Shown: piece after piece, positions 6,373-21,885 of the stretch
How positions within the stretch are numbered: position 1 is the first letter of the stretch
Layout of the letters: each line of letters starts with the position of its first letter
Source: Bryobacterales bacterium
GTDB taxonomy: Bacteria > Acidobacteriota > Terriglobia > Bryobacterales > Bryobacteraceae
NCBI GenBank assembly: GCA_003169195.1
Contig: PMQB01000600.1
Location: 1 to 38,709 of the forward strand
Length of the DNA stretch: 38,709 bases
Reading direction: 5' to 3'
Position numbers and translations under genes: made by a program
The notes under the pieces: model-generated
Told to the model about the DNA's origin: nothing
Databases searched by the model: none
Seen by the model: the letters and a program-made list of their open reading frames with translations, nothing else

Positions 6373-6450
6373 TGCGCGCATATAGCATGTTGAAGCCATA
6401 GCAAATTGCCCCGCTGGGCTGTACGCTCTCGACAGGAGCGAGTCCCAGCC

Positions 6451-7293
6451 ATGCCCACTACCACCAACGGCGCCACCACCCTCACGCCGCCGGAGCAATT
6501 ACAAGCCAGACTCTCCGACCCAAAAATTCTCGACGCCCTGAACCGCCTCCTCGACCGCGCCGAACTGCTCGCCTTCAGCGCCGATGCCCTCGACGGCCTG
6601 ATCCGCCGCGGTGACGAAATCACCAACTCTGTGAACGAAATGGTGGTCGACGCCCGCAACGGCGCCTCGCCCAATGAATTCATGGACGTCGCCGGCAAGC
6701 TTCCTCAACTCGCCCGCGCTGGTGTCCAAGTCGCTAACACCGTCGACAAACCTGAATTTGGCGCGCTTCTCAATTCCGGCCTGCTCGAACAACTCGCCAA
6801 TCCCGCGGTTATCGAATCTTTGAAACTCGTTCTCAGCAAGATCGACCTCATCGCGTTCGCCGTCAAAGCCGCGGACGAATTCTTCAAACGCGGCGACATC
6901 ATCACCGACAACATTGGCGAGAGCATCGGCGATCTTCGCAAACTCGCCTCCAGTGTGGATGTGGAGAAGGTGCGCACCCTTGCCGCCGAACTGCCCGTTC
7001 TCTTGGACGCCAGCAACGAGCTGATCAATGCCGGCGTTCCCGCCAAGCTCAAACAACTGGTTGACGCCAGCGGCATCGTCGTCGATTCCGGCATGCTTGA
7101 TCCGGATACCGTCAAACTTCTGGCCCACGCCGGCAAGATCGCCGCATCCAGCTACATAGAAACGCAGGCCGCCCCGCGTCGCGACATCAAAGGCATTTTC
7201 GACCTCCTCGGCGCTCTTAAAGACCCCGGCGTTCAACACGCCCTCGGCTTCTTTGTCGAATTTATGAAACGCTACTCGGCGAAAATGAAATAG
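6451..7293 (+). CDS. DUF1641-like protein with internal duplication, first gene of the hydrogenase locus
   Basis: 280 aa from ATG 6451, preceded by AGGAG at 6434-6438. A TTG at 6406 could extend it by 15 residues but has no ribosome-binding site. The C-terminus (IKGIFDLLGALKDPGVQHALGFFVEFMKR) resembles DUF1641/YrhD proteins, which are found beside formate dehydrogenases and hydrogenases. Two related copies lie in tandem: LSDPKILDALNRLLDRAELL followed by LIRRGDEITNSVNE, and LANPAVIESLKLVLSKIDLI followed by FFKRGDIITDNIGE. The protein is helical, soluble and without a signal peptide. It ends one base before hypA, so it should be cotranscribed with the maturation genes. Its role is unknown; a structural, assembly or partner-docking function is only a guess. 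Confidence 0.85.
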   Translation: MPTTTNGATTLTPPEQLQARLSDPKILDALNRLLDRAELLAFSADALDGLIRRGDEITNSVNEMVVDARNGASPNEFMDVAGKLPQLARAGVQVANTVDKPEFGALLNSGLLEQLANPAVIESLKLVLSKIDLIAFAVKAADEFFKRGDIITDNIGESIGDLRKLASSVDVEKVRTLAAELPVLLDASNELINAGVPAKLKQLVDASGIVVDSGMLDPDTVKLLAHAGKIAASSYIETQAAPRRDIKGIFDLLGALKDPGVQHALGFFVEFMKRYSAKMK

Positions 7294-7294
7294 C

Positions 7295-7642
7295 TTGCAT
7301 GAACTGTCCATCGTTCTCGGCGTCATAGAAACCGTTTCCGAATCGGCCAACGCCGCCAACGCCAAAAAAATTATCGCTACCTATCTCCGTGTGGGTGCTC
7401 TGGCCGGCGTCGTGAAAGATGCGTTGCTCTTTAGCTTTGAAATCGCTAGCAAAGACACCCCACTCGAAGGTTCGGACCTGGTCATCGAAGAATTGCCGCC
7501 CCTCATTTTTTGCAGAGTTTGCGACAAAACTGTAGAACTCGACAGCATTCAGAGCTTTCGCTGTCCGGTCTGCGATACCCCGAGCGCCGACCTCCGCCAA
7601 GGCAAGGAACTGGAGATACGCTCCATCGAGATAGAAGTGTGA
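7295..7642 (+). CDS. hypA: HypA nickel insertion factor
   Basis: 115 aa, full length for HypA/HybF, which delivers nickel to the hydrogenase large subunit together with HypB. The start is TTG at 7295. It is secure because it gives the invariant N-terminal MHELSI, whose His2 is the nickel ligand. The zinc site is present as C73, C76, C90 and C93 (FCRVC and RCPVC). It lies one base after the DUF1641-like gene and 4 bases before hypB. Confidence 0.96.
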   Translation: MHELSIVLGVIETVSESANAANAKKIIATYLRVGALAGVVKDALLFSFEIASKDTPLEGSDLVIEELPPLIFCRVCDKTVELDSIQSFRCPVCDTPSADLRQGKELEIRSIEIEV

Positions 7643-7646
7643 AACG

Positions 7647-8318
7647 ATGTCGGTTATGACCACTCGCGTTCTCGAAGTGCGCAAGAACGTTCTCAACAAG
7701 AACGACGAACTTGCGCGCGAGTTGCGAAGCACCTTCCAATCGGCTGGTGTTTTCGTCCTGAATCTAGTGTCCAGCCCAGGCACCGGCAAGACCATGCTGC
7801 TCGAAAAGACTCTCGCCGCCTTGCGCCAGCGCGGTCATCGCGTGGCTGCACTCGTGGGCGATCTCGAAACCGACAATGACGCCAAGCGCCTGGCCCAAAG
7901 CGGTGCGCCCGTTCGCCAAATCAAAACCGACGGCCGTTGCCATCTTGAAGCCACCATGATTCGCACTCACTTGGAGGGCTGGTCTCTCACTGACTTGGAT
8001 TTTCTCTTTATCGAAAACGTCGGCAATCTTGTCTGCCCCGCCAGCTACGACCTCGGCGAGGCCGTTCGTGTCGCGCTCCTCTCCGTCAGCGAAGGCGAAG
8101 ACAAACCTCTCAAATATCCCACCATGTTCAACAGTGCCGACGCCGCCGTTGTCACCAAGATGGATCTCGCTGAAGCCTGCGAATACGATCGTGAAACTGC
8201 CTTGCGCAATATCCGCGAAATTCGTCCCTCCATTGAGATCATTGAGCTTTCTGCGAAGCGTGGCATCGGCGTGGATTCCTGGCTCGACTTTCTGGAACGT
8301 AAAAAACGCGGCGTTTGA
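7647..8318 (+). CDS. hypB: HypB GTPase for nickel insertion
   Basis: 223 aa. P-loop SSPGTGKT at 42-49, GDLETDNDAKRL, TDGRCHLEA (C98, H99), ENVGNLVCPASYDLGE (C130) and TKMDL guanine-binding motif; C98, H99 and C130 correspond to the metal site in the G domain. It lacks the histidine-rich nickel-storage stretch and the N-terminal CxxCGC site of some HypB proteins, so it is a minimal form that probably gets nickel from HypA or SlyD-like donors. The start ATG 7647 lies 4 bp after hypA; a second Met three codons in is possible. Confidence 0.96.
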   Translation: MSVMTTRVLEVRKNVLNKNDELARELRSTFQSAGVFVLNLVSSPGTGKTMLLEKTLAALRQRGHRVAALVGDLETDNDAKRLAQSGAPVRQIKTDGRCHLEATMIRTHLEGWSLTDLDFLFIENVGNLVCPASYDLGEAVRVALLSVSEGEDKPLKYPTMFNSADAAVVTKMDLAEACEYDRETALRNIREIRPSIEIIELSAKRGIGVDSWLDFLERKKRGV

Positions 8319-8337: not shown

Positions 8338-10113
8338 ATGAGCGCTGGAACGGCACTACCGGGTCGAATGGATTTCGATTCAGTGGGTCCCGGCTCGGAT
8401 GACGAACTGGTGCGCTTGCGCGCTGAAGTGGCCCACCTGCGCCGCGAAAATCTCTGTCTCACGGGCGAGTCGGAATTGCTCCGCGCTGCTGCGCGCATTG
8501 TCGTCGAAGAACTCGACACCCGCGTCCTCATCCAGGAAATAGCTCGCCTCGCCGCAGCCGTCCTGACCGCCGATCACGCCGTGATTGGCCTCTGCGACGA
8601 AGATGTGTTCGCCCAGGAAACAGGCTATTCTCACGGAGTCGGCCCCACCAGCGATGCCGGAGTCGCTAGTGATCCGGTCGCCAATTGGGTCTGCAAGCAT
8701 CGCGCGGCTTTTCTCTCCAACAGTCCAGCCGTTGATTCCCGACTGACAAAAACTCCGACACCTCCCACCTACCGGAACGTGCTCGCAGTTCCGATTCTCA
8801 ATCACCAGCGCCTGGTGATTGGCGTACTCGAAGTGCAGAATCGCCGCACCGGTGTATTTACGGAGCGCGACCGAAACGCTGCCGAAACACTTGCTCTGCT
8901 CGCTTCCACCGGCTTATCTCGGGCCAAGCTCTATGACCGCATGCAGGAATGGTCTCGCTCTCTCGAAATGCTTCTTGCCTTCAACGCCGCCGTCAACCAG
9001 CACCTCGATCCCAAGTCCTTGGTGAAGAAGCTCGTCGAAAATGCCGCGCAGTTTTTAGAGGCACAAGGCGGCATGGCTGGGTTGGCCATCTCCTCCAAAG
9101 AAGGCGAGACACAGATGGTTTCGGAGAGTTACTGGTTCCGGGGCACCTGGCATGAGCGCCAGCGGCGTTGGGATCGCTTCGAAGGTCTGCCCGGCACTCT
9201 TCTCGAAAACGAGTTTTCCTATCTTTCAAACGACTATCAGTCCGATCGTCTAGCCGACGAAGAGTTAAAAGCTAATTTCGAAGTGCGCCGCGCTCTTTGT
9301 GTGCCCATCAAAGATGTGGACGATCGTTTGGTGGGATTCTTCGAACTCCACAAAAGCGGCAGTACAGCGCCCTTCACGTGGCAAGATACGGCGTTTCTCG
9401 AATCTCTTGGCAACACAACGGCTGTAGCCTTGCAAAACGCTCAACTCCTCAAGACGCTGGAAATTCGCGGCCGTGAAATGGAAAATCTCTCCCGGCGTCA
9501 CGTGACTCATCTTGAGGAAGAAAGAGCGCGCATCGCCCGGGAGTTGCATGACGAAGCCGGCCAATTGCTCATTGGCATCAAGCTGAGTCTCCAAGTGCTT
9601 GCCCACCAAATGCCGGAAGACATACCGGAGGTGAGACAGGAACTAGATGAGTTGCGTAACCAAGTGAATCAAGCGACCTCCCGCTTCAAGGATCTGGCGA
9701 AAGGTCTCCGTCCTCCCACACTCGACAAACTCGGACTCAATGTATCTCTCCGCCAACTCGCTGCCGACCACGAACGCCGCACCTGCATTCCGGTTCATTT
9801 GGAGTTAAGCACCAACATGTCCCGCTTAAGTCAGTCGGCAGAGATTGCGCTGTACCGGATTGTCCAAGAAGGCCTAACGAATGCGGCCAAGTATGCCAAT
9901 GCCACCGAGATTTTCATTTACCTGCAAAAGACCGGCGCTGACATCGAACTGGACATTCGCGACAATGGAACGGGCTTTGATCCAGGCCGAATAAGTTCGG
10001 GCTTGGGTCTACTCGGCATGCGGGAGCGCGCCAGTATGCTGGGCGCTCGCTTTTACGTCAAGAGCTTGCCCAACAAAGGGACGGAGATTCAGGTAAGAGT
10101 GCCCAACGTATGA
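8338..10113 (+). CDS. Soluble GAF-domain sensor histidine kinase (HisKA_3 type)
   Basis: 591 aa from ATG 8338, 19 bp after hypB. There are no membrane segments. A short coiled-coil-like start (LRAEVAHLRREN) precedes two GAF-like domains (about 55-200, FTERDRNAAETLALLAS; and about 205-375, ending LGNTTAVALQNAQLLKTL). A NarX/DesK-type dimerisation domain follows with the phospho-acceptor H404 (EERARIARELHDEAGQ), and an HATPase domain with DNGTGFD and SGLGLLGMRERA. The layout resembles that of the mycobacterial redox/gas sensors DosS and DosT, but haem binding cannot be judged here. The stop overlaps the response-regulator start. Its position between hypB and the hydrogenase structural genes suggests it controls them in response to redox, oxygen or energy state; that is inference. 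Confidence 0.95.
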   Translation: MSAGTALPGRMDFDSVGPGSDDELVRLRAEVAHLRRENLCLTGESELLRAAARIVVEELDTRVLIQEIARLAAAVLTADHAVIGLCDEDVFAQETGYSHGVGPTSDAGVASDPVANWVCKHRAAFLSNSPAVDSRLTKTPTPPTYRNVLAVPILNHQRLVIGVLEVQNRRTGVFTERDRNAAETLALLASTGLSRAKLYDRMQEWSRSLEMLLAFNAAVNQHLDPKSLVKKLVENAAQFLEAQGGMAGLAISSKEGETQMVSESYWFRGTWHERQRRWDRFEGLPGTLLENEFSYLSNDYQSDRLADEELKANFEVRRALCVPIKDVDDRLVGFFELHKSGSTAPFTWQDTAFLESLGNTTAVALQNAQLLKTLEIRGREMENLSRRHVTHLEEERARIARELHDEAGQLLIGIKLSLQVLAHQMPEDIPEVRQELDELRNQVNQATSRFKDLAKGLRPPTLDKLGLNVSLRQLAADHERRTCIPVHLELSTNMSRLSQSAEIALYRIVQEGLTNAAKYANATEIFIYLQKTGADIELDIRDNGTGFDPGRISSGLGLLGMRERASMLGARFYVKSLPNKGTEIQVRVPNV

Positions 10114-10760
10114 TGTCAAACTGGCGCGTAATGTTAGTGGATGACCATAAATTGGTCCGTCGTGGCTTAGCCGCTCTCCTTCGTCTGGATGGTCGATATC
10201 ACGTGGTGGCCGAAGCAGACGATGGCGAAGAAGCCCTCCAGCAATTGGAGACCGTTCCCGTGGACGTCGTGATTCTCGACCTTTCCATGCCGCGCCTCAA
10301 TGGCATGGAAACGATTAAACGCATAGTGAAAAAGTTTCCTAAAACGAAAACGATGGTACTGTCGATGCACGAAGACGAACAGTTCGTTGCTCGTGCTTTC
10401 CAAGACGGTGCGCGCGGCTACGTCTTGAAGCACGCCATGGATGACGAGCTTTTCAAGGCCCTCGATACGATCCTCCGCGGTAACCAGTTTGTTAGTTCCG
10501 CCATCGATAGGGCCAGCGTAGACGCCCACGCCCTTGAGTCCGACGAACTCACCGCCCGCGAACGCGAAGTGCTACAACTCATTGTCGACGGCCACACCAC
10601 TCAGGCCGTTGCCGATATTCTTTCCATCAGTCCCCATACTGCTACCCGACATCGCGCCAACCTCATGCAGAAACTCGCCGCCCACAGCCAGGTCGAACTC
10701 GTTCGCAACGCCGCTCAGCGCGGCCTCATTATCATGCCCAAAGCGTCCCTCGAAGGTTGA
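10110..10760 (+). CDS. NarL/FixJ-family response regulator
   Basis: 216 aa. Receiver domain with acidic pair D11, D12, phospho-acceptor D57 (VVILDLSMPRLNG) and K at LKHAM; LuxR-type helix-turn-helix near the C-terminus (LTAREREVLQLIVDGHTTQAVADILSISPHTATRHR). The start overlaps the kinase stop (ATGATG), so kinase and regulator are coupled and are cognate. It is followed by 121 bp and then hhyS, making that gap the most obvious target for the regulator. A second Met directly follows the first. Confidence 0.96.
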   Translation: MMSNWRVMLVDDHKLVRRGLAALLRLDGRYHVVAEADDGEEALQQLETVPVDVVILDLSMPRLNGMETIKRIVKKFPKTKTMVLSMHEDEQFVARAFQDGARGYVLKHAMDDELFKALDTILRGNQFVSSAIDRASVDAHALESDELTAREREVLQLIVDGHTTQAVADILSISPHTATRHRANLMQKLAAHSQVELVRNAAQRGLIIMPKASLEG

Positions 10761-10881: not shown

Positions 10882-11853
10882 ATGGCATCAGTTTTGTGGC
10901 TACAAGGCGGAGCGTGCAGCGGCAATACCATGTCGTTCTTAAACGCCGAAGAACCGAGTGCGTGTGATTTAGTAACTGATTTCGGGATTGACCTCTTGTG
11001 GCATCCCTCTCTCGGTATGGAGATGGGCAACAACGCCAAGAAAATTTTTGAAGATCTCGCCACTGGCCGCAAACCCCTCGACATTTTCGTTTTTGAAGGT
11101 ACCGTCATACTGGGCCCCAACGGCAGCGGTCGTTTCAACATGTTTGCCGATCGCCCTATGAAAGACTGGGTGAAGGAACTCGCCGCACAAGCCAACGCTG
11201 TGGTCGCTTTAGGTGACTGCGCCTGCTGGGGCGGCATCCCCGCCACTGAGCCTAACCCCGTCAATAACGTCGGTCTCCAATATCTGAAACGTGCGCAAGG
11301 CGGCTTCTTGGGTTCCGACTTCCGCTCTAAGTGGGGCTTGCCTGTTGTCAATATTCCAGGTTGCCCGGCTCACCCTGATTGGGTCACACAAATCCTCGTA
11401 GCCATCGCCTCCGGCCGCGCCAAAGATATCGCCCTCGACGATCTCCAACGTCCCCAAACCTTCTTCAAAACCTTCACTCAAACGGGTTGCACCCGCGTTC
11501 AGTTCTTCGAATACAAACAATCTCCCACGGAGTTCGGCCAAGGCACTCGCACTGGGTGTCTCTTCTATGAATTCGGCTGTCGCGGACCTATGACTCACTC
11601 GCCGTGCAACCGTATTCTTTGGAATCGGCAGTCCTCCAAAACCCGCGCCGGCATGCCTTGCACCGGTTGTACCGAACCTGAGTTTCCCTTCCACGATCTC
11701 AAGCCGGGAACAGTATTTAAGACTCAAAAAATCAGCGGAACCATCCCCAAAGAAGTGCCATCTGGCACTGACCACGTCACCTACATGGCGCATGCGGCAG
11801 CCGCTCGGATCGCAGCTCCTAAGTGGGCCAAAGAAGACATGTTCGTCGTGTAA
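10882..11853 (+). CDS. hhyS: [NiFe]-hydrogenase small subunit, group 1h (actinobacterial/high-affinity type)
   Basis: 323 aa from ATG 10882, with AGGAG 8 bases before it. The longer upstream frame is rejected because it runs through the response-regulator gene. It carries the Fe-S clusters that take electrons from the [NiFe] site. LQGGACSGNTMSFLNAEEP is characteristic of group 1h/5 small subunits. The usual proximal CxxC is C12-S-G-N15, so one normal Cys ligand is missing; C113 (GDCACWGG) and C161 (IPGCPAHPDW) keep the others. Published work on the Ralstonia homologue, as I recall it, describes an Asp ligand there. Further cysteines at 203, 226, 233, 242, 260 and 263 would serve the outer clusters. 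There is no twin-arginine signal or membrane anchor, so a cytoplasmic enzyme is predicted. Confidence 0.96.
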   Translation: MASVLWLQGGACSGNTMSFLNAEEPSACDLVTDFGIDLLWHPSLGMEMGNNAKKIFEDLATGRKPLDIFVFEGTVILGPNGSGRFNMFADRPMKDWVKELAAQANAVVALGDCACWGGIPATEPNPVNNVGLQYLKRAQGGFLGSDFRSKWGLPVVNIPGCPAHPDWVTQILVAIASGRAKDIALDDLQRPQTFFKTFTQTGCTRVQFFEYKQSPTEFGQGTRTGCLFYEFGCRGPMTHSPCNRILWNRQSSKTRAGMPCTGCTEPEFPFHDLKPGTVFKTQKISGTIPKEVPSGTDHVTYMAHAAAARIAAPKWAKEDMFVV

Positions 11854-11881: not shown

Positions 11882-13504
11882 ATGTCGACTACGTTAGTCT
11901 CTCCCTCAAAAATGCATATCAGCCCATTGGGCCGCGTGGAAGGTGACCTCGATCTCACCATCACCGTTAATGATGGTGTTGTCACAGACGCTTGGACCAC
12001 GGCCAGCATGTTCCGCGGCTTCGAGATCATTCTCAAGGGTAAAGATCCTCAAGCCGGCTTGATTGTTACACCGCGTGTGTGTGGCATATGCGGCGGCAGC
12101 CACTTGTATAAAGCAGTCTATGCTCTTGATACCGCCTGGAAAACCCACGTGCCCAAGAACGCCACGCTTGTCCGCAATATTGCTCAGGCTTGCGAAACAC
12201 TGCAATCCATCCCGCGTTGGTTCTACGCCCTGTTTGCCATCGATCTTACTAACAAGAACTATGCCCAAGCCAAGGAATACGACGAAGTGGTTCGCCGCTT
12301 CGCTCCTTTCGTTGGGACTAGTTATGAAAAAGGCGTCACGCTCTCCGGCAAGCCCGTCGAAGTCTACGCCCTCTTTGGCGGTCAATGGCCGCATTCCAGC
12401 TTTATGATTCCTGGCGGCGTCATGTGTGCGCCCACTCTCTCCGATGTCACTCGCGCCATTGCCATACTTGATTATTGGAAAAGGGAATGGCTAGAGGCCA
12501 CTTGGCTCGGTTGCTCCATCGACCGTTGGCTGGAAAACAAGACTTGGGCCGACGTCATGAAATGGGCCGACGAAAACGACAGTCAGCGTAATTCTGATTG
12601 CGGCCTGTTCTTGCGCTTTGGTCAGCGCGTCGGTCTCGATAAATTCGGCCAGGGTTGCGGCGCTTATCTCGCAACTGGCACCTACTTTCAGCCCGAGTTA
12701 TATGAAAATCCCACGATCGACGGCCGCAACGGCGCTCTTATCAATCGTTCAGGTATTTATGATGGCTCTGGCTATCACGATTTTGACCATCTTCGCGTAA
12801 AAGAAGACATCACCAACTCCTTCTACCGCGGCGCCTCCCAACTCCATCCTTGGGACGGTGTTACGGAACCGATCGATCCCATCGATGGTGAGAAACAAGG
12901 GAAATACAGTTGGGCCAAATCTCCGCGTTACGACGTGCCGGAAAAGGGCTTTCTCCCCCTCGAAGCGGGTCCGCTCTCTCGCCAGGTCATCGCTGGCAAA
13001 CCGAACCCCGCTCCCCACCAGGATTTCGATCCTCTCTTCCTCGATGCCATCCGTACCGTGGGTCCCAGCGTCCTCGTCCGGGTCATGGCTCGCATGCATG
13101 AAGCCGCCAAGTACTACAAAATAGCTCGCAAAGCACTCGATGATCTGGAACTCCACGACAAGTACTACACCAAACCCGTCGAATTGCCCGAAGGCAAAGG
13201 GTTCGGATCGACCGAGGCCGCGCGCGGTTCTCTCTCCGACTGGATTATTCTCAAGAACGGCCGCATTGAGAATTACCAAATCGTGACTCCCACCGCCTGG
13301 AACATTGGCCCGCGTGACAATCGCCAAATCAACGGTCCTATGGAGAAAGCCTTCATCGGTGCACATATCACCGACCCACAGGACCCCGTAGAAATGGGTC
13401 ACATTGCCCGTTCGTTCGATTCTTGTCTCGTATGCACCGTGCACGCATACGATGGCAAGACTGGCAAAGAACTCTCTCGCTTCCGTATCGGCGAAGGTTC
13501 TTAG
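11882..13504 (+). CDS. hhyL: [NiFe]-hydrogenase large subunit, group 1h
   Basis: 540 aa from ATG 11882, 28 bp after hhyS; the longer open frame overlapping hhyS is not used. It begins MSTTLVSPSKMHISPLGRVEGDLD. The four nickel-site cysteines are present: C67 and C70 (TPRVCGICGGSH) and C515 and C518 (DSCLVCTVH). The 19-residue tail after H521 is the cleavable C-terminal extension removed after nickel insertion, and the protease gene follows directly. DSC replaces the more common DPC at the second motif, as I would expect for this subgroup. The enzyme is predicted to oxidise hydrogen at very low, atmospheric-type concentrations in air; that property is known for characterised relatives and is inferred here. 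Confidence 0.97.
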   Translation: MSTTLVSPSKMHISPLGRVEGDLDLTITVNDGVVTDAWTTASMFRGFEIILKGKDPQAGLIVTPRVCGICGGSHLYKAVYALDTAWKTHVPKNATLVRNIAQACETLQSIPRWFYALFAIDLTNKNYAQAKEYDEVVRRFAPFVGTSYEKGVTLSGKPVEVYALFGGQWPHSSFMIPGGVMCAPTLSDVTRAIAILDYWKREWLEATWLGCSIDRWLENKTWADVMKWADENDSQRNSDCGLFLRFGQRVGLDKFGQGCGAYLATGTYFQPELYENPTIDGRNGALINRSGIYDGSGYHDFDHLRVKEDITNSFYRGASQLHPWDGVTEPIDPIDGEKQGKYSWAKSPRYDVPEKGFLPLEAGPLSRQVIAGKPNPAPHQDFDPLFLDAIRTVGPSVLVRVMARMHEAAKYYKIARKALDDLELHDKYYTKPVELPEGKGFGSTEAARGSLSDWIILKNGRIENYQIVTPTAWNIGPRDNRQINGPMEKAFIGAHITDPQDPVEMGHIARSFDSCLVCTVHAYDGKTGKELSRFRIGEGS

Positions 13505-13528: not shown

Positions 13529-14017
13529 ATGCACGCCAAAGTTCAAACACTCATCATTGGCTGCGGCAATCTATTGCGCGGTGACGATGCCGCTGGCCCG
13601 GTCCTGATTCGCCGTTTATGGGAGATGGGCCTTCCCCCCGGCGTCCAATGCGCCGATGGCGGCACTGGCGGTATGGACGTCGCCTTTCAAATGCGCGGTG
13701 TCCCCAACGTCATTCTTATTGATGCCTCCCACACGGGTTCCGAGCCGGGTGCCATCTTTTGCGTACCCGGTGATGAATTAGAACGGCTGCCTCCCCTCAC
13801 CGGCCTCAATCTACACTGTTTTCGCTGGGATCACGCACTCGCTTTCGGTCGCTGGTTACTCAAAGACGAATATCCAAAACAAATTACGGTATACCTAATT
13901 GAAGCGGCCAATCTGGAGTTTGGAGCCGAGTTGTCCACCCCAGTAAAAGCCGCAATCGAAAGCTTGGCGAAACAGCTTTTGCACGGATGTACAGCACATG
14001 CCTGTGTCGAGGTATGA
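13529..14017 (+). CDS. Hydrogenase maturation endopeptidase (HyaD/HybD family)
   Basis: 162 aa. It starts with MHAKVQTLIIGCGNLLRGDDAAGP, the signature of nickel-dependent hydrogenase maturation proteases. D20 stands at the position of the first metal ligand (Glu in HybD), with later metal-ligand candidates in LIDASHTG and CFRWDHAL. It should cut the 19-residue tail of HhyL after the last His. It lies 24 bp downstream of hhyL and its end overlaps the next gene by 20 bases. Confidence 0.94.
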   Translation: MHAKVQTLIIGCGNLLRGDDAAGPVLIRRLWEMGLPPGVQCADGGTGGMDVAFQMRGVPNVILIDASHTGSEPGAIFCVPGDELERLPPLTGLNLHCFRWDHALAFGRWLLKDEYPKQITVYLIEAANLEFGAELSTPVKAAIESLAKQLLHGCTAHACVEV

Positions 14018-14522
14018 GGTGGAAATAACAAACCGCGGCTATCTCTACCTAAGCGCTGACCTCGCCTCAACTCGTTTCCCGTACGATGCTCTATTCGCTA
14101 CCCTCGAATCCGGCAATCTGGTCTTATGGCCCACCAGCGGCGCTACTGCCGGCGGCCTTCTGCTCAAGCAACGCAACGTCTCTGGTGATCGTTGTGTTCT
14201 GATGTCCGAAATCTTCCATGCCGATACAACTCCCGGTAAACGAGAAGCTGTTTGGGATGATCGACGCTGTCATCTCTCCATTCCTCTGATCGCGAGGAAG
14301 GCTCCGCAAGCCGTCGCCGCCAACACACTCATCCAAGAAGAGTGCGGCCGCTGGGTCGTTTACCTGGAAGTGGGCTTCTGGGAGCCTTCAGGTAGCGCTC
14401 CTCTCAAAGTCACTCGCAATAGAATCAGAGATTATCCAACACGCCGAGACGCAGAAGTCGCGGCCTCTTGGATTCAGCGTTCGGCCGAACGAAACGTCAG
14501 TCGTCCTGTGGAAGGAAGCTAA
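13998..14522 (+). CDS. Unknown 174-aa protein of the hydrogenase operon
   Basis: 174 aa, not recognised. The ATG at 13998 overlaps the protease gene by 20 bases; an in-frame GTG at 14019 would nearly remove the overlap. No signal peptide, membrane helix or metal-binding cysteine motif is seen. The composition is that of a small mixed alpha/beta soluble protein, with short beta-like runs such as GYLYLSADL and GRWVVYLEVGFWEP. It sits in the middle of the structural and accessory genes, tightly packed, and must be cotranscribed with hhySL. An accessory role in assembly or electron transfer is inferred from position only. Confidence 0.8.
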   Translation: MPVSRYEVEITNRGYLYLSADLASTRFPYDALFATLESGNLVLWPTSGATAGGLLLKQRNVSGDRCVLMSEIFHADTTPGKREAVWDDRRCHLSIPLIARKAPQAVAANTLIQEECGRWVVYLEVGFWEPSGSAPLKVTRNRIRDYPTRRDAEVAASWIQRSAERNVSRPVEGS

Positions 14523-14524
14523 CT

Positions 14525-15739
14525 GTGACACAGCCTATCGGCATCTTTCCTCCACCTGCCGCTCTTCTTGTCTTGCCTCCTGCCGGAGATCCCGATGCCC
14601 TCGCCGCTTTACTCCGTGGCGATATCACTCATCTACTCCCTCCCGAATGGAACTTCTTTGAAGCCGCGGTCCACGGGCGAACGAAGGAAGCCTTAGAAAT
14701 CCTTGCAAGCCTTGACGCCCCCATCGCTCATTACAATCTCTTTGTTCTACAAGGTGGCGACCTCGCGCGCTACCGTCACCTGCGTGCCAACCTCACTCCT
14801 GACCTAGCCAGCCTCCTCCAAGTAGCCGCCTTTCAATTCGGTCTGATAGAAGAACTGCCGCTTGCCGAATCCCTTGAGGGTGAATGGAAGGCTGTCCTAC
14901 TTCTAACACGCGCCTCGCGCCATCTGGAAAATCAAGAAACCACCCGAGCCATCGTCGATCTCGAGCAGGCCGTCGAATGCGTGCGAACTTCATCTCCTGT
15001 GTTCGCAGCCCAACTACTCGGTCAGATAGCAGGCCTTCGTTGGAGCGCTCCCGGCCAAGATGTCTCCCAAGTCATCGACAATTACAGTGAAGCGATCAAA
15101 CTCGCCGGCAACACACCACTCGATGGACTCTGTGCCGAACTCTGGCTCAACCTTGGCTCGTGTTATCAGGAACACTCCGACGGTCGTCGCGACTATCTCA
15201 CTCACGCCATCCAGGCATACCAGCAAGCCATTCAGTGCGACCTTTCCGAAACCAATCACCCTGAAATGTACGCCCTCGCGCAAAATAATCTTGGCTTGGC
15301 TTATCTTACTATGCCCATGATCGAAGCGAGCGACGATCTCCGCAAAGCCGTTGCTGTTCAATCCTTCCGCGAAGCTCTGAAGGTCTACCAGTCCCACACT
15401 CATCGCCTCGAATGGGTCAGCGCCAAGCTCAACCTCGCTAACGCTCTCCAGCATCTCCCGTCCTCCCACCCCGAAGAAAATCTAGTTCAGGCAGTCGATA
15501 TCTACGAAGAGCTATTGCAAACGCGCAGCCGCGCCGAAGACCCCGTAGGTTATGCGCGCCTATTAGCGAATCAAGCCAACGCTCTCGCCCATTTGGGCTT
15601 GTTTTCCCAATCCTTAGAAAAAGCCAACGAAGCGTACAAACTATTCCACTGGCACAATGAAGCCGATTCCGCTGCTAGCGTCCTGGAATTGGTGGGCAAA
15701 GTTCATGAAAGCCTTGGAAACAAACAGGTCACAGCCTAA
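14525..15739 (+). CDS. Tetratricopeptide-repeat protein of the hydrogenase operon
   Basis: 404 aa from GTG 14525, chosen because GGAAGG at 14511-14516 lies 8 bases before it and the upstream extension overlaps the preceding gene. The last 250 residues are helical TPR-like pairs, for example AELWLNLGSCYQEH, YALAQNNLGLAYLTM, AKLNLANALQHL and ARLLANQANALAHLGLFSQSLEKANEAYKLF. The first 130 residues (AALLRGDITHLLPPEWNFFEAAVHG) are specific to this protein. There is no signal peptide, so it is probably cytoplasmic. TPR proteins usually act as docking platforms, so it might hold the hydrogenase or its carrier in a larger complex. The stop directly abuts the next start codon. Confidence 0.9.
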   Translation: MTQPIGIFPPPAALLVLPPAGDPDALAALLRGDITHLLPPEWNFFEAAVHGRTKEALEILASLDAPIAHYNLFVLQGGDLARYRHLRANLTPDLASLLQVAAFQFGLIEELPLAESLEGEWKAVLLLTRASRHLENQETTRAIVDLEQAVECVRTSSPVFAAQLLGQIAGLRWSAPGQDVSQVIDNYSEAIKLAGNTPLDGLCAELWLNLGSCYQEHSDGRRDYLTHAIQAYQQAIQCDLSETNHPEMYALAQNNLGLAYLTMPMIEASDDLRKAVAVQSFREALKVYQSHTHRLEWVSAKLNLANALQHLPSSHPEENLVQAVDIYEELLQTRSRAEDPVGYARLLANQANALAHLGLFSQSLEKANEAYKLFHWHNEADSAASVLELVGKVHESLGNKQVTA

Positions 15740-16126
15740 ATGGACCTCCACGAAAAACAGCAATTCGATTTCCTTCTCAATACCGCGGTAGAGCGCTATG
15801 TTGAACGTTTGGAACAGCGTAACGGCGGTGTGGAAATCGCATTGCAGCGTCTGCGCCATGATCCTGACTCCGAGGGAATTTGGCTCACTCGATTCACTCA
15901 GGCGATATTTGATGATTTTCTCCTTTCCAACGTCGAAGGCGCTTGCTTCATTCTGAAAGCCCTAGCAAAGCGCCCCGCACGCACTATTGCCCCCGGCAAA
16001 GTCGAGTTCACGCTATTGGCTATGGCGCAGCAGATCTTCGCGGATCTACTCCGCCAAAAAACTGAAGAAGCCTTAGAGCAACGCTCCGGTCGGGAAGTCG
16101 CATCTATTAAGGAAGGCTCTGCATGA
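15740..16126 (+). CDS. Unknown 128-aa helical protein of the hydrogenase operon
   Basis: 128 aa, not recognised. It begins at the base after the TPR gene's stop and overlaps the NifU-Rieske gene by 4 bases (ATGA, 16123-16126), so coupling is strict. It is predicted helical (LLNTAVERYVERLEQRNGG, AIFDDFLLSNVEGACFILKAL) and has one cysteine. Helical content and position next to the TPR and Fe-S proteins suggest a small adaptor, but nothing shows a function. Confidence 0.82.
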   Translation: MDLHEKQQFDFLLNTAVERYVERLEQRNGGVEIALQRLRHDPDSEGIWLTRFTQAIFDDFLLSNVEGACFILKALAKRPARTIAPGKVEFTLLAMAQQIFADLLRQKTEEALEQRSGREVASIKEGSA

Positions 16127-16977
16127 TACAGTCCGTCTTGGATCAGACAGAACTACAAGATCTTGCCAAACGCGTGGATACCGCAGTGCAAGCAGTTCGC
16201 GACCTCAAGGGCGATGCTCGTGAAAAAGCGCTTGCCATGAAAACGGCCATTGAAGAGTTTCACAAGAGTGCACTTACTCGCATGATTCAGTCACTCAAGT
16301 CTGATCCGCATGGCAAAGAATTGCTCTTCGCCATGATTGACGAGCCTGAGATCTATGCCATGCTCTCCATGCACTCGCTCATCCGCCCGGATCTTGCCAC
16401 CCGAGTGCGCAGCGTTATCGAAAACGTTCGGCCCTACATGCAGTCTCACGGCGGTGATGTGGAACTTTTAGAGGTCACTACCGACACCGTCAAGTTACGT
16501 CTCGCCGGCTCTTGCAATGGATGTTCCCAATCCGCTGTTACCCTCCGCAATGGCGTAGAAGAAGCTCTGCGTGAAAGCGTTCCGGAAATCTCTCACATTG
16601 AGGTAGCCCCAAACGAACCAGGACCCTCACTGATTTCTGTTGAAAGCCTGCTGCACGCCAATCAAAAAGGTTGGATAGCTGGACCCGCTCCCGAAGAACT
16701 CACAGACGGCAAGCCATTTCGGATCGAAGGCGAAAATAGTGGAGTCATCCTCCTACGCTCGGGTAATGAGATTCAAGCCTTTCGAAACGCATGCGCCCAC
16801 ATGGGCCTGCCTCTTGATGGCGCTATGGTCGATCGCGAAGCCGGCACCATCACTTGCCCCTGGCACGGCTTCCGTTTTGATTGTCGGACTGGTGAGTGTC
16901 TCACAGCTCCGCACGCCCAACTCGAGGTGCTCCCGTTGCGGCTGGAGGGCGGCATCATTCATGTGAGGCCCTCATGA
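16123..16977 (+). CDS. NifU-like and Rieske [2Fe-2S] fusion protein, candidate hydrogenase electron carrier
   Basis: 284 aa. Residues about 1-90 are helical and unassigned. About 92-163 is a NifU C-terminal-type domain with CNGC (C131, C134; YMQSHGGDVELLEV before it). About 180-284 is a Rieske-type domain with CAH (C224, H226) and CPWHGF (C245, H248), giving two Cys and two His for a [2Fe-2S] cluster. Rieske-type proteins such as HhyE and HucE of mycobacterial hydrogenases have been proposed to carry electrons to the respiratory chain, and this is the equivalent candidate here. The NifU part may instead help build Fe-S clusters of HhyS. There is no signal peptide or membrane helix, and it shares an ATGA overlap with the next gene. 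Confidence 0.93.
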   Translation: MIQSVLDQTELQDLAKRVDTAVQAVRDLKGDAREKALAMKTAIEEFHKSALTRMIQSLKSDPHGKELLFAMIDEPEIYAMLSMHSLIRPDLATRVRSVIENVRPYMQSHGGDVELLEVTTDTVKLRLAGSCNGCSQSAVTLRNGVEEALRESVPEISHIEVAPNEPGPSLISVESLLHANQKGWIAGPAPEELTDGKPFRIEGENSGVILLRSGNEIQAFRNACAHMGLPLDGAMVDREAGTITCPWHGFRFDCRTGECLTAPHAQLEVLPLRLEGGIIHVRPS

Positions 16978-18131
16978 AGCCTCAATTATGGCTAGGTGCA
17001 CCCGCTCCCGGAGGTTTAGCTCTTCCTGCCGCGAATCCCACGCCTTCGCAGTTCTACGGGCCCCGCGGCGTGTTCCTCAACGATGAACTCCTTATCGTCG
17101 CCGATTCTGGCAATCACCGAGTTCTCATCTGGAGCCACCCTCCCACTCAGAGTCACCAGCCTGCCGACATCGTCCTAGGTCAACCGGATTTCTACACCGA
17201 AGGCCCTAATCGCCATCGCACTAACATCCTCAAGGGCTTCTTCCTGCCCACCAGCGTCGCCGTCTTCAATCACAGGCTCTTTGTCGCTGACGCCTGGAAT
17301 CACCGCATTCTTGTTTGGAACTCCGTACCTACCGTCAGTGACACAGCTCCAGACTTTGCCATAGGTCAACCCGATCTCTCTTCCGGTGAGCCAAACCAGG
17401 GGGAAGCCGTCAGCGCGTCCACTCTCTATTGGCCGTACGGGATCGCGTTTATCGAACAGAATTTCTACGCGGCCGATACCGGCAATCGCCGAGTGCTAGT
17501 CTGGCGCGGTCTTCCCACCTGCAATCAACCCGCTGACATCGTCCTCGGCCAAGATGATTTCAACCAGAACGGTGAGAATCGTAACGTGGGCGTCGGCCCT
17601 TCTTCGTTTCGCTGGCCCCACGCTCTCGCGGGGAATGCCGATATTCTCTATGTCGCCGATGCGGGTAATCATCGCATTCTGGGTTGGTACCCACCTCTGC
17701 CTAGAGATCGACCCGCCGACTTCGTCCTTGGCCAACCTCGCTTCGATTCCGCAACCGAATTCCCCTACGCCAAACAATCCGCCGAAAAACTGCGTTTTCC
17801 ATACGATATCGCCTGTAATAACCAAATCGTCGCCGTTTCCGACAGCGCCAACAATCGCATCTTACTTTGGAAAGCGCCACTGCAGCGGTCCTGTGGCGCC
17901 GCCGCGACGGCGGTCTTGGGCCAGCCCGATTTCGCCCTCAACGGCGAAAACCACTGGAAAGAAGTGAATGAGAAAACTCTCTGCTGGCCTTATGGAATTT
18001 CTCTTCATCGCTCCGCCCTTGCTGTTGCCGATTCGGGTAATAATAGAGTCATGATCTGGGATCTCAGCGAAATGCTCAATTTTGAGCTTGAGAAACTAAC
18101 CGCCGAACAAAGAAGCCTTATATGTGTCTAG
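16974..18131 (+). CDS. NHL-repeat six-bladed beta-propeller protein of the hydrogenase operon
   Basis: 385 aa from ATG 16974, which overlaps the NifU-Rieske stop (ATGA); the longer frame upstream is a shadow. Six NHL signatures occur at regular spacing: VADSGNHRVLIW (42-53), VADAWNHRILVW (104-115), AADTGNRRVLVW (166-177), VADAGNHRILGW (227-238), VSDSANNRILLW (288-299) and VADSGNNRVMIW (351-362). Linkers of the form VLGQPDF separate the blades. Together they make one closed six-bladed propeller. There is no signal peptide, which is unusual for NHL proteins and agrees with a cytoplasmic partner of HhySL. Its role is unknown; protein-protein docking is the likeliest use of such a fold. It overlaps hypC by 10 bases. 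Confidence 0.93.
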   Translation: MKPQLWLGAPAPGGLALPAANPTPSQFYGPRGVFLNDELLIVADSGNHRVLIWSHPPTQSHQPADIVLGQPDFYTEGPNRHRTNILKGFFLPTSVAVFNHRLFVADAWNHRILVWNSVPTVSDTAPDFAIGQPDLSSGEPNQGEAVSASTLYWPYGIAFIEQNFYAADTGNRRVLVWRGLPTCNQPADIVLGQDDFNQNGENRNVGVGPSSFRWPHALAGNADILYVADAGNHRILGWYPPLPRDRPADFVLGQPRFDSATEFPYAKQSAEKLRFPYDIACNNQIVAVSDSANNRILLWKAPLQRSCGAAATAVLGQPDFALNGENHWKEVNEKTLCWPYGISLHRSALAVADSGNNRVMIWDLSEMLNFELEKLTAEQRSLICV

Positions 18132-18403
18132 CCGTTCCAGGACAAGTAAAAGAAATATTCGAACAAGGTGGCACCCGCATGGGTCGGGTCAACTTTGGCG
18201 GCATCACAAAAGAGGTCTGCCTTGCTTATCTGCCAGATATCGTTGTCGGAGATTACACCATCGTTCACGTTGGTTTTGCCATCAGCAAGATCGACGAAGA
18301 ATCTGCGCAAAAAACTCTTCAGATGTTCCGTGATCTCGGTATCCTCGAAGAAGAGTTAGGCGTCGAACCTGTTGCTGCCCCGTTGTCAGTGAGTGGCCCA
18401 TGA
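18122..18403 (+). CDS. hypC: HypC/HybG hydrogenase maturation chaperone
   Basis: 93 aa. It begins MCLAVPGQV with the essential Cys2, which binds the Fe(CN)2CO unit and the large-subunit precursor. The middle [39 protein letters not shown] is standard HypC. It overlaps the NHL gene by 10 bases and hypD by 4. Confidence 0.96.
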
Positions 18404-19524
18404 AGTATCTGAACGAATTTCGAGACGGCGAGACCGCCCAAAAACTATTTCGCGAAATCGCCCGCGTCACAACCAGGCCGTGGGCGATGATGGAAGTCTG
18501 CGGTGGACAAACTCACTCTATCATCCGCAATGGTATTGACCAACTTCTGCCGCCGGGCATCGAACTCATTCACGGTCCGGGCTGCCCTGTCTGTGTCACT
18601 CCTCTGGAGATGATCGACAAAGCCCTCGCCATCGCCTCCAAACCGGGCATCATCTTCTGCTCTTTCGGCGACATGCTGCGCGTCCCCGGCAGTGACAAAG
18701 ATTTGTTCCGCGTCAAAAGCGAAGGCGGCGACGTGCGCATCGTCTATTCTCCACTTGATGCCCTCAAAATCGCCCGCGAAAGTCCCACGCGTCAGGTCGT
18801 CTTCTTCGGCATAGGTTTTGAAACCACCGCACCTGCTAACGCCATGGCTATCAGTCTAGCGGCAAAGGAAAATCTAACCAATTTCTCTGTATTGATCTCC
18901 CATGTCCTTGTCCCCCCCGCTATGGAAGCCATCATGAGATCTCCCATCAATCGCGTGCAGGCGTTTCTGGCCGCCGGCCATGTCTGCAGCGTCATGGGTT
19001 ATTGGCAATATCCACCGCTGGCCGAACGCTTTCAAGTGCCCATCGTCATCACTGGCTTCGAACCTCTCGACGTGCTTGATGGCATCCGTCGCGCCGTCAT
19101 CCAACTCGAATCAGGCCGCCATGAAGTTGAAAACGCATATGGCCGCGTTGTCAACTTCGATGGCAACAAGCCTGCGCAACAAATGCTCGAGAACGTGTTT
19201 GAAATCACAGACCGCACCTGGCGCGGTATCGGCATGATTCCCAAGAGTGGTTGGCATCTGCGCCCCGAATATCGCAATTTCGACGCTGAATATAAGTTCG
19301 AAGTGCGCGGTATCGTCACCAAAGAGTCACCTCTTTGCCGCTCAGGCGAAGTCCTGCAAGGTGCCATCAAACCAAACCAGTGTTCTTCGTTCGGCACCGT
19401 CTGCACGCCTCGTTCGCCCCTGGGCGCTACCATGGTGTCTAGCGAAGGCGCCTGCGCTGCTTATTACAATTACGGCCGCTTCATTCAAGTGGAGGATCTT
19501 GCAACGGCATGTCCAGTCAAATAG
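18400..19524 (+). CDS. hypD: HypD Fe-S scaffold for Fe(CN)2CO assembly
   Basis: 374 aa, full length. Conserved motifs are MEVCGGQTH (C34), [11 protein letters not shown] (C62, C65), [10 protein letters not shown] and the C-terminal cluster-binding cysteines ([30 protein letters not shown]). HypD works with HypC to assemble the iron-dicyanide-carbonyl group. Its start overlaps hypC by ATGA and its end overlaps hypE by 16 bases. Confidence 0.97.
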
Positions 19525-20567
19525 ATTTCTCTTCTTGGACCTGTCCGCTTCCCCTTCGTGATTACCCAAATATCGTTCTCGGTCACGGTGGCGGTGGTAA
19601 ACTCTCTGCTGAGTTAGTAGAGAATCTGTTTCTGCCAGCCTTCCGCAATCCTGCCATTGAGTCTCTCGGAGACTCGGCCGTTCTCCGTGTTCCTCCTGGC
19701 CGTCTCGCCTTTTCAACTGATTCCTACGTCGTTCGTCCTCTCTTCTTTCCCGGCGGCAGCATTGGCGACCTAGCCATCAACGGCACTGTGAATGACATCG
19801 CCATGAGTGGTGCACAACCTCTTTACCTCAGCGTCGCATTCATTATTGAAGAAGGACTCCCGATGGCCACTCTCGGTCAAATTGTCGACCGCATGCGCAT
19901 CGCCGCTAACTCCGCTGGAGTTCAAATTGTCACCGGCGATACCAAGGTGGTTGAAAGGGGCCACTGTGATGGCTGCTTCATCAATACCGCCGGCTTCGGT
20001 ATCATTCCCGAGGGCAGGGAAGTGGGTCCTGCCCTCGCCAAGCCTGGCGATGCCGTTATTGTCAGTGGCACCGTCGGAGATCACGGCATGGCCGTCATGA
20101 GTGTGCGTGAAGGTCTCGAGTTCGAAACCATTATTCAGTCCGACTCCGCAGCGCTAAACAGTCTGGTAGAAGCTATTTTCACCGCTTCGAACGACATTCA
20201 CGTCTTACGCGACCCCACTCGCGGAGGTCTTGCTTCCTCGCTGAACGAAATCGCCGCTCAATCCAAAGTCGGCATCGCCCTCATAGAAGACCAAATCCCA
20301 GTCAAGCCAGACGTTCAATCAGCCTGTGAACTTCTAGGTATGGATCCCATCTACGTGGCAAACGAAGGAAAATTAGTAGCCATCGTCAGCCATTCCTCGG
20401 CCGACTCTGTCTTAGCTACTATGCGCCGCCATCCTCTTGGCATCGACGCCGCCATCATCGGCACGGTGATCTCCGAACGCCCGGGACTGCTCAGCGCCAA
20501 AACGAAAATCGGCGGCACCCACGTGATCCCTATGCAAATCGGCGAACAACTCCCGCGCATCTGCTAA
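19509..20567 (+). CDS. hypE: HypE, cyanide-forming hydrogenase maturation protein
   Basis: 352 aa, an AIR-synthase-like (PurM) ATPase that dehydrates the thiocarbamate made by HypF into a thiocyanate on its C-terminal cysteine. Seen here: [81 protein letters not shown] and the terminal PRIC with C352 as the acceptor. It is the last gene of the plus-strand hydrogenase locus. Confidence 0.97.
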
Positions 20568-20854: not shown

Positions 20855-21268
20855 TTAAACAGTCTTCAGCGCCCCCGCCTCACTCATCGCAATTTCAATC
20901 GCAGGCGTGTGCAGCATCGTATTGTGGATCAAGCAATTCTTCGCCGCTCGGATCACGCCATCACGGTGCCGCTCGTCCTCCAACCCTGGAGCATCAATCA
21001 CAATACGAAACTGGTCCATACGCGCCGGCTGAGTCGCTTTCCCTGCCTCCACTTTTACGGTCAACCCGTCAGTTGCGAGTTTCCGCGCTTTTAAATATTG
21101 CATTGCGTAGTAGCCCGCGCATGTGCCCAACGCCGCCAAAAGAAATTCTGGCGGAGTCATGCCTGTATCCCTGCCGCCATTTTCGGCCGGTTGGTCGCAC
21201 ATCACCCTATGCCCGCGCGCCTCCGCCTCAAAGCGCACTCCATCCAAAAAACGGATTGTACTTTCCAT
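20855..21268 (-). CDS. OsmC/Ohr-family protein
   Basis: 137 aa from ATG 21268 (MESTIRFLDGVRFEAEARGH). An in-frame TTG at 21304 could add 12 residues, but the ATG gives the normal family start. It contains GGRDTGMTPPEFLLAALGTCAGYYAMQYL with the first redox Cys and NCLIHNTML with the second, the pair used by OsmC/Ohr proteins to reduce peroxides with a dithiol partner. It may be a general OsmC-like protein rather than OsmC or Ohr proper. It converges on hypE and probably is not part of the hydrogenase unit. Confidence 0.9.
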   Translation of the reverse strand: MESTIRFLDGVRFEAEARGHRVMCDQPAENGGRDTGMTPPEFLLAALGTCAGYYAMQYLKARKLATDGLTVKVEAGKATQPARMDQFRIVIDAPGLEDERHRDGVIRAAKNCLIHNTMLHTPAIEIAMSEAGALKTV

Positions 21269-21885
21269 ACTTACCCAGATGCGGAAATCTCCGCGAAGTG
21301 ACAACCAGTAGGAGCGAAAGTTTTCTGGTCACAGATTCTGAAAAATAGAGTTTAGCCTCTTATCCGCATCAACAACCGAGACAGGTTAGGGCGGCAGTCG
21401 TGTTTTCCCTCCAACTCGCGCGCCTTCCGTTTACTTATTTTCCAACCAGTGGAGAAATTCCAACTGCAGCCTGAAAACATCACCGGTTCCACGTTGCCTC
21501 CGCAATCAGCGCAAGGCAGATTTCTTGGAACTCAGAACTCTACAGCAGGAAAGCCTCGAAAAGAAGAAAGCGGAGGGCGAACACGTGAAAACCTCTGCTT
21601 ACCGACCCGGCTCAGCCTCCTCTCTTTCTACCAGTGAAGGGCACGCCGTGAGCGATTTGCCAGTAGCAAATCCGAAGTGGGTCTCCGCTCTTCCTCCCAA
21701 ACCTCACATTAAATTGGACTTCCGCGCCAATTTACTGTAAAGTAAAGAAGGGTGAGCACTGTAGCCCATTCTTCCGGCCTTGTGCGCTAAGGCATATTGT
21801 CGGAATCTTGCTTTCTTAGAGCTAACATCCGGGCTGAAGTTACTTCAGGACTCGGGCGCAATTCGCGCAATGAAAGCGGGCATGT
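21269..21885. other. 617-bp stretch without a convincing gene
   Basis: Contains only short frames (longest 71 codons, 21525-21740, with low-complexity, non-conserved-looking sequence and a non-ATG start). Two small palindromes are visible: TTTACT-GTAA-AGTAAA at 21731-21746 and CTGAAG-TTA-CTTCAG at 21834-21848, the second 37 bp before the next start codon. They could be regulator sites for the downstream gene. No tRNA, IS end or CRISPR repeat is seen. Confidence 0.5.
21834..21848. promoter_or_regulatory. Small palindrome upstream of the 128-aa gene
   Basis: CTGAAG-TTA-CTTCAG, a perfect 6-bp inverted repeat with a 3-bp centre, 37 bp before the start at 21886. A regulator site is possible; chance occurrence is also possible at this length. 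Confidence 0.3.

Follow-up and report, generated by a model that had tools for sequence, protein, structure and literature searches.

Organization of the locus

The window analyzed here spans 38,709 nucleotides (contig PMQB01000600.1, assembly GCA_003169195.1) of the genome of a Bryobacterales bacterium, a member of the Acidobacteriota, and carries a [NiFe]-hydrogenase operon. Three open reading frames (ORFs) of the operon are the subject of the analysis. They code for a 174-residue protein (A), a 404-residue tetratricopeptide repeat (TPR) protein and a 128-residue helical protein (C), and reside between the genes for the maturation protease and for a NifU-Rieske protein (Table 1). The ORF of A starts with ATG and overlaps the protease gene by 20 nt; the TPR ORF starts with GTG 2 nt past A, C follows with zero spacing, and its end overlaps the NifU-Rieske ORF by 4 nt. 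These distances bear out the tight packing pointed out in a preliminary description of this DNA. The remark made there, that none of the three proteins has an obvious catalytic motif, agrees with the family searches: neither A nor C has a Pfam or NCBIfam family, nothing being found for A at E ≤ 1, and the matches of C and of the TPR protein lie below the family cut-offs.

The large subunit of the hydrogenase scores 887 bits against HucL of M. smegmatis (7uus_A), versus 130 against HofG of group 1h (5aa5_C); the small subunit scores 618.8 bits against M. smegmatis HucS, versus 106.6 against HofK of group 1h. Because the Huc scores exceed by far the Hof scores, the enzyme is, by sequence, a group 2a (Huc-type) [NiFe]-hydrogenase. 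A group 1h (Hhy) identity is ruled out, and the name HhySL given earlier to the two subunits was wrong. Other features of group 2a operons are also found in the window, namely hucE (NifU-Rieske), an NHL protein, hyp genes and a gene for a HucM-type membrane subunit. Residues 11–521 of the large subunit align to residues 5–515 of the 515 in 7uus_A. As the solved mature HucL chain terminates at the residue aligned to His521 of the 540 in the window protein, a 19-residue tail is expected from the alignment to be cut off by the protease encoded by the adjoining gene. Two further [NiFe]-hydrogenase-like large subunits are encoded by other contigs (C44 and C249) of the same genome, a fragmented assembly with an estimated contamination of 6.34%; profiles of A and C match only the window copy.

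Domain architecture of protein A

Related operons were collected by scanning named genomes with HucL, keeping the best 80 of 280 matches. Loci including at least 4.2 kb downstream of hucL were regarded as full, and 68 were obtained, the window included. Protease and TPR genes were found in all 68, NifU-Rieske in 67, A1 in 59, A2 in 46, and C in 41. A1 and A2 denote the two halves of protein A (about residues 7–97 and 101–171, respectively). Protein A is a fusion of two domains usually encoded separately, a reading based on the finding that in most lineages A1 and A2 are separate neighbouring genes. The two share one ORF in Sulfobacillus and in five loci of Acidobacteriota, the window among them; of these five, L038 and L039 do not differ over the compared stretch. 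In two loci A1 is found in one ORF with the TPR protein.

In each of the 65 loci having both, A1 lies 31–288 nt (median 55) past the protease domain; in 27 of them protease and A1 form a single ORF. The fused ORFs come from 24 Actinomycetota (21 mycobacteria), 1 Acidobacteriota and 2 Planctomycetota. In all 21 mycobacterial loci, which do not include M. smegmatis, protease and A1 form a fusion, A2 is a gene of its own, the TPR gene is present and C is absent. A1 is marked by the stretch K-Q-R-N-x-x-G-D-R, in which K is conserved in 70, Q in 61, R in 69, N in 56, G in 71, D in 69 and the last R in 68 of 72 sequences; the stretch is still recognisable in two Bacteroidota.

Predicted fold of A1

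No relative of protein A was found by sequence among solved structures at E ≤ 1. The AlphaFold2 model of A has a mean predicted local distance difference test score (pLDDT) of 93.0 and a predicted template modelling score (pTM) of 0.70. Foldseek comparisons to the PDB gave no match at E ≤ 0.001 for the models of either A or C. When the top Foldseek chains were realigned with VIA-align, the A1 model was superimposed on MraZ, a protein of the SpoVT/AbrB-like fold, at Z 8.7 (86 residues, root-mean-square deviation 3.2, 12% identity). Five MraZ entries range from Z 7.8 to 8.7, and the next other chain on A1 scores 2.7. Since a best Z of 7 to 8 is typical of models lacking a clear match, and 8.7 is just above, the MraZ-like fold predicted for A1 is taken as a lead only. 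The best A2 match, YaiA at Z 4.5, was not used.

If A1 were a DNA-binding autoregulator of the operon in the manner of MraZ or AbrB, the TPR protein and C would be helpers unrelated to it. The structural match speaks for such a role, as does comparison of the A1 profile with that of 30 MraZ sequences, in which the first half of A1 aligns to the second MraZ repeat at E 0.003; this is the strongest of 11 family pairs compared, the probability is only 10%, and common descent is not shown by it. Against it, A1 lacks the DxxxR motif, which we take to be the DNA-binding signature of MraZ: the aligned columns hold T in place of D in 63 of 72 sequences, and Y in place of R in 61 of 72. No Pfam MraZ match was found among the 63 members of the alignment searched, the A1 domain being present in 35 of them. 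The presence of A1 in one ORF with the protease in 27 of 65 loci, and of a two-component pair already upstream in the window, also argue against a regulator, and this role is regarded as very improbable.

The TPR protein and protein C

The 404-residue protein matches four TPR models at E values from 5e-4 to 9e-3, each below its cut-off, and two plasmid homologues carry a TPR annotation. The start of the family is conserved, Q3, P4 and G6 being nearly invariant, and for this reason the GTG at 14525 is favoured over an upstream TTG.

C is modelled by AlphaFold2 as five helices (pLDDT 95.7, pTM 0.87). It has a single cysteine and is not hydrophobic (grand average of hydropathy, GRAVY, −0.3). Searches of solved structures by sequence gave four chance-level rows, the best at E 0.059. 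Three candidate relationships were set aside: Ocr, the best structural match (VIA-align Z 7.7), is below the level meaningful for helical bundles; comparison with HucM gave no signal (hhalign probability 1.0%, 18 columns); the same holds for NifU-Rieske and TPR proteins (probability ≤ 1.8%).

The TPR protein and C might act with the NifU-Rieske protein in supplying HucS with its three [3Fe-4S] clusters, much as proposed for Nostoc genes. C adjoins the NifU-Rieske gene, and a role in small-subunit maturation has been proposed for asr0689-alr0692 of Nostoc (PMC2408588). The single cysteine of the window protein does not favour this, and the resemblance of C to the Pfam family FeS_assembly_P (E 0.12) is under the cut-off; cluster loading is kept as a tentative possibility. 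The products of asr0689 and asr0690 are described as small and as having two transmembrane regions, and differ in this from the non-hydrophobic C.

In four alphaproteobacterial group 2a operons small, very hydrophobic proteins are found between the TPR and NifU genes, the place taken elsewhere by C (L138:13289-13734, L140:13274-13699, L141:13320-13768, L135:13297-13506); they are possibly the counterpart of asr0689/asr0690. Alphaproteobacterial loci also carry, in the hucL-protease interval, two adjoining and similar proteins of 103–128 residues with the conserved cysteines CxxCMYY...C...C (L135:10686-11337, L138:10689-11398, L140:10650-11361). They may be small iron-sulfur carriers, the pattern being, as we presume, HiPIP-like.

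Distribution of the genes

Homologous genes arranged in this order, although not every lineage has all of them, were identified in Acidobacteriota, Planctomycetota, Gemmatimonadota, Chloroflexota, Actinomycetota, Bacillota and Deinococcota. In 247 genomes of the phylum of the window, HucL (E ≤ 1e-100) was found in three, at 100%, 84% and 39% identity. The A and C profiles match the same two genomes, those with the close HucL; the genome with the 39%-identical large subunit (G158) has no A or C profile match. In 166 Chloroflexota genomes, HucL, A and the TPR protein (E ≤ 1e-30) were each found in six and C in five, all within the same six; in the sixth (G343) A1, TPR and NifU-Rieske occur together without C. 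Wherever the A or C profile finds a match in the genome samples of the two phyla, the genome also has a HucL at least 74% identical. A single-sequence TPR search matched 18 of the 247 genomes, strongly in 2, both with group 2a hydrogenases, and weakly in 16 (E 1.9e-14 to 8.6e-4). The weak matches are read as generic TPR similarity; the window genome has one extra weak match of its own (E 9.6e-6).

On plasmids, a large-subunit match at E ≤ 1e-60 was found in 36 records, 17 of them at 51% identity or more (6 of the 36 were placed by organism tally). By tblastn, the TPR protein is matched in 16 of these 17, the Hymenobacter plasmid having none, and in 0 of the other 19. Nine of the 17 were searched with profiles: all 9 have A1 and TPR, and one (Thermus) has C; the two Bacteroidota A1 matches are weak (E 0.003 and 0.006). 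TPR matches outside group 2a records are mostly annotated as CHAT-domain or TPR-repeat proteins. Variants of the operon reside on plasmids of Thermus, Sulfobacillus, Bradyrhizobium, Mesorhizobium, Sphingopyxis, Octadecabacter, Runella, Hymenobacter and M. intracellulare.

Co-occurrence in full loci, in the two genome samples and on plasmids sustains the view of the preliminary description that the genes belong with the hydrogenase. The finding that would have refuted it, homologues lying mostly away from hydrogenases, was not obtained in the 247 and 166 genomes.

Comparison with known systems

The order protease-hypothetical-TPR-hypothetical-NifU/Rieske-NHL-hypCDE has already been published for Parageobacillus, and partly for Nostoc. 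In Parageobacillus thermoglucosidasius the reported order of the Phb (group 2a) locus is DUF1641, hypA, hypB, small subunit, large subunit, protease, hypothetical, TPR, hypothetical, NifU, NHL, hypC, hypD, hypE (PMC12976888, Table 1; PMC6036681). The window, from a different phylum, is alike in published gene order, but has in addition a two-component pair separating hypB from hucS, and encodes hypF on the opposite strand.

According to the accounts of Nostoc PCC 7120, TPR, NifU-like and NHL genes lie between hupSL and hyp and are co-transcribed (PMC2408588, PMC3126725). The window resembles this extended hyp-operon (asr0689-alr0693) in these three genes, again by published order.

The window shares homologues of HucS, HucL and HucM with the huc operon of M. 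smegmatis (MSMEG_2261-2270). The protease MSMEG_2264 and the TPR protein MSMEG_2267 are reported as detected proteins and, with HucL, as less abundant under rifampicin (PMC5338346).

Other genes of the window

The features are collected in Table 1. The NHL gene is given as the longest ORF, which overlaps hucE; its true start probably lies downstream of the hucE stop region. The histidine kinase and response regulator are possible regulators of the operon. An OsmC-like protein is encoded directly past the hyp genes, on the minus strand (20855-21304).

Table 1. Features of the group 2a hydrogenase operon in the window
Feature	Position	Strand	Remarks
hucM homologue (DUF1641)	6406..7293	+	HucM domain present twice in tandem; corresponds to the known scaffold/membrane subunit
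hypA and hypB	7295..8318	+	Pfam HypA and cobW/HypB
GAF histidine kinase and LuxR-type response regulator	8338..10760	+	Between hypB and hucS
hucS, group 2a small subunit	10882..11853	+	618.8 bits to M. smegmatis HucS; NiFe_hyd_SSU_C
hucL, group 2a large subunit	11882..13504	+	887 bits to 7uus_A
Hydrogenase maturation protease	13529..14017	+	TIGR00072, E 9.3e-38; HycI
174-residue protein A	13998..14522	+	Fusion of A1 and A2
Domain A1	14016..14285	+	MraZ/AbrB-like predicted fold
Domain A2	14307..14507	+	Modelled as three strands plus a helix; usually a small gene of its own
404-residue TPR protein	14525..15739	+	GTG start; weak TPR Pfam matches
128-residue helical protein C	15740..16126	+	Five helices in the AlphaFold2 model
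hucE-type NifU-Rieske protein	16123..16977	+	NifU and Rieske domains
NHL-repeat protein (longest ORF)	16896..18131	+	NHL, E 3.6e-22
hypC, hypD and AIR-synthase-type protein in hypE position	18122..20567	+	Pfam HupF_HypC, HypD, AIRS

Scaffold or assembly

The preliminary description viewed the three proteins as candidates for scaffold or assembly proteins. As structural scaffold subunits, they would join HucSL and the NifU-Rieske carrier in a large complex. The tight packing is in keeping with this, as is the finding that all 68 full loci have the TPR gene, and TPR proteins are often part of complexes. The Huc enzyme of M. smegmatis, however, is described as an 833-kDa oligomer purified with three subunits only, HucL, HucS and HucM, in which HucM is the scaffold; deletion of hucM led to loss of the high-mass species (PMC10017518). 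The window carries a HucM homologue, and C is found in 0 of 21 mycobacterial loci, M. smegmatis, the source of the solved oligomer, not being among them. A scaffold made by the three proteins is not supported and is the less likely reading, an improbable one; the other half of the earlier idea, a part in assembly or maturation, is favoured.

HucM domains are in tandem in 36 of the 65 loci counted, the window included, and HucM is single in mycobacteria; the geometry of the oligomer may differ between the two forms. Four further loci with TPR and NifU-Rieske genes, having no HucM match, were left out of the count. Tandem HucM coexists with C in 34 loci and occurs without C in 2, while single HucM is found with C in 5 and without C in 24; the association is confounded, as 21 of these 24 are mycobacteria.

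Proposed roles

The three ORFs probably code for accessory proteins of the group 2a operon which, most likely, build the enzyme rather than being subunits of it. The most likely roles are those of protease partner for A1 and of assembly chaperone for the TPR protein. A1, adjacent or fused to the protease, would work with it in trimming HucL after His521. The TPR protein would be a chaperone holding HucL or HucS in precursor form, and partners, while the enzyme is put together, a role suggested by the repeat type and by its presence in every full locus. C and A2 would be helpers varying with the lineage. The finished oligomer would be scaffolded by HucM, as demonstrated by others in M. smegmatis, and not by the three proteins. 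It is conceivable, if somewhat doubtful, that A1 is a dedicated group 2a protease partner built on a DNA-binding MraZ/AbrB-type barrel that shed its DNA signature and came to handle proteins, recruiting or positioning the HucL tail, and that C adds a further helical component to a larger Huc assembly where HucM is duplicated in tandem.

Several observations weigh against an assembly role. A1 was not detected in 10 TPR-bearing loci, on long or short contigs, 5 of which have fewer than 190 nt from protease to TPR; a relaxed search of the 10 gave sub-threshold hints in two only (E 0.07 and 0.13). A1 cannot therefore be strictly required for protease action. Protease-A1 fusions come mostly from one group, 21 of the 27 being mycobacterial. 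The locus counts are not independent, since they derive from the best 80 of 280 matches, include 21 mycobacteria among 68 loci, and are biased to close HucL relatives. None of the 21 mycobacterial loci has C, and it is lacking throughout the M. rhodesiae genome. In Parageobacillus, expression of the TPR gene is given as 0.03–0.04 fragments per kilobase per million mapped reads, against values climbing to hundreds for the genes on either side (PMC12976888). Among the operon proteins it is HucE, rather than the TPR protein, A or C, for which an effect of deletion has been reported: deletion of hucE or hhyE lowers H2 oxidation, and the double deletion abolishes it (PMC6883350). Neither interaction nor knockout results on A, TPR or C turned up in the literature searched.

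In the strongly induced group 2a cluster of P. thermoglucosidasius 23.6, hypB and the NHL gene are also listed as flat and near zero (PMC12976888, Table 1). The near-zero values of TPR, NHL and hypB may reflect either an artefact of mapping or a genuine gap in regulation.

Significance

Group 2a hydrogenases are described as a widespread route to the use of atmospheric hydrogen in aerobic bacteria (PMC7784904), and the role of proteins encoded by their operons has been called unclear in print (PMC6036681). The gene order was already known; the division of the 174-residue protein into A1 and A2, and the fusion of A1 to the protease in mycobacteria, are new, and no study of the A1 fusion or fold was found in the literature searched. 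Domain split, protease fusion and fold lead turn proteins of unknown function into testable steps, of relevance to the production of Huc in another host.

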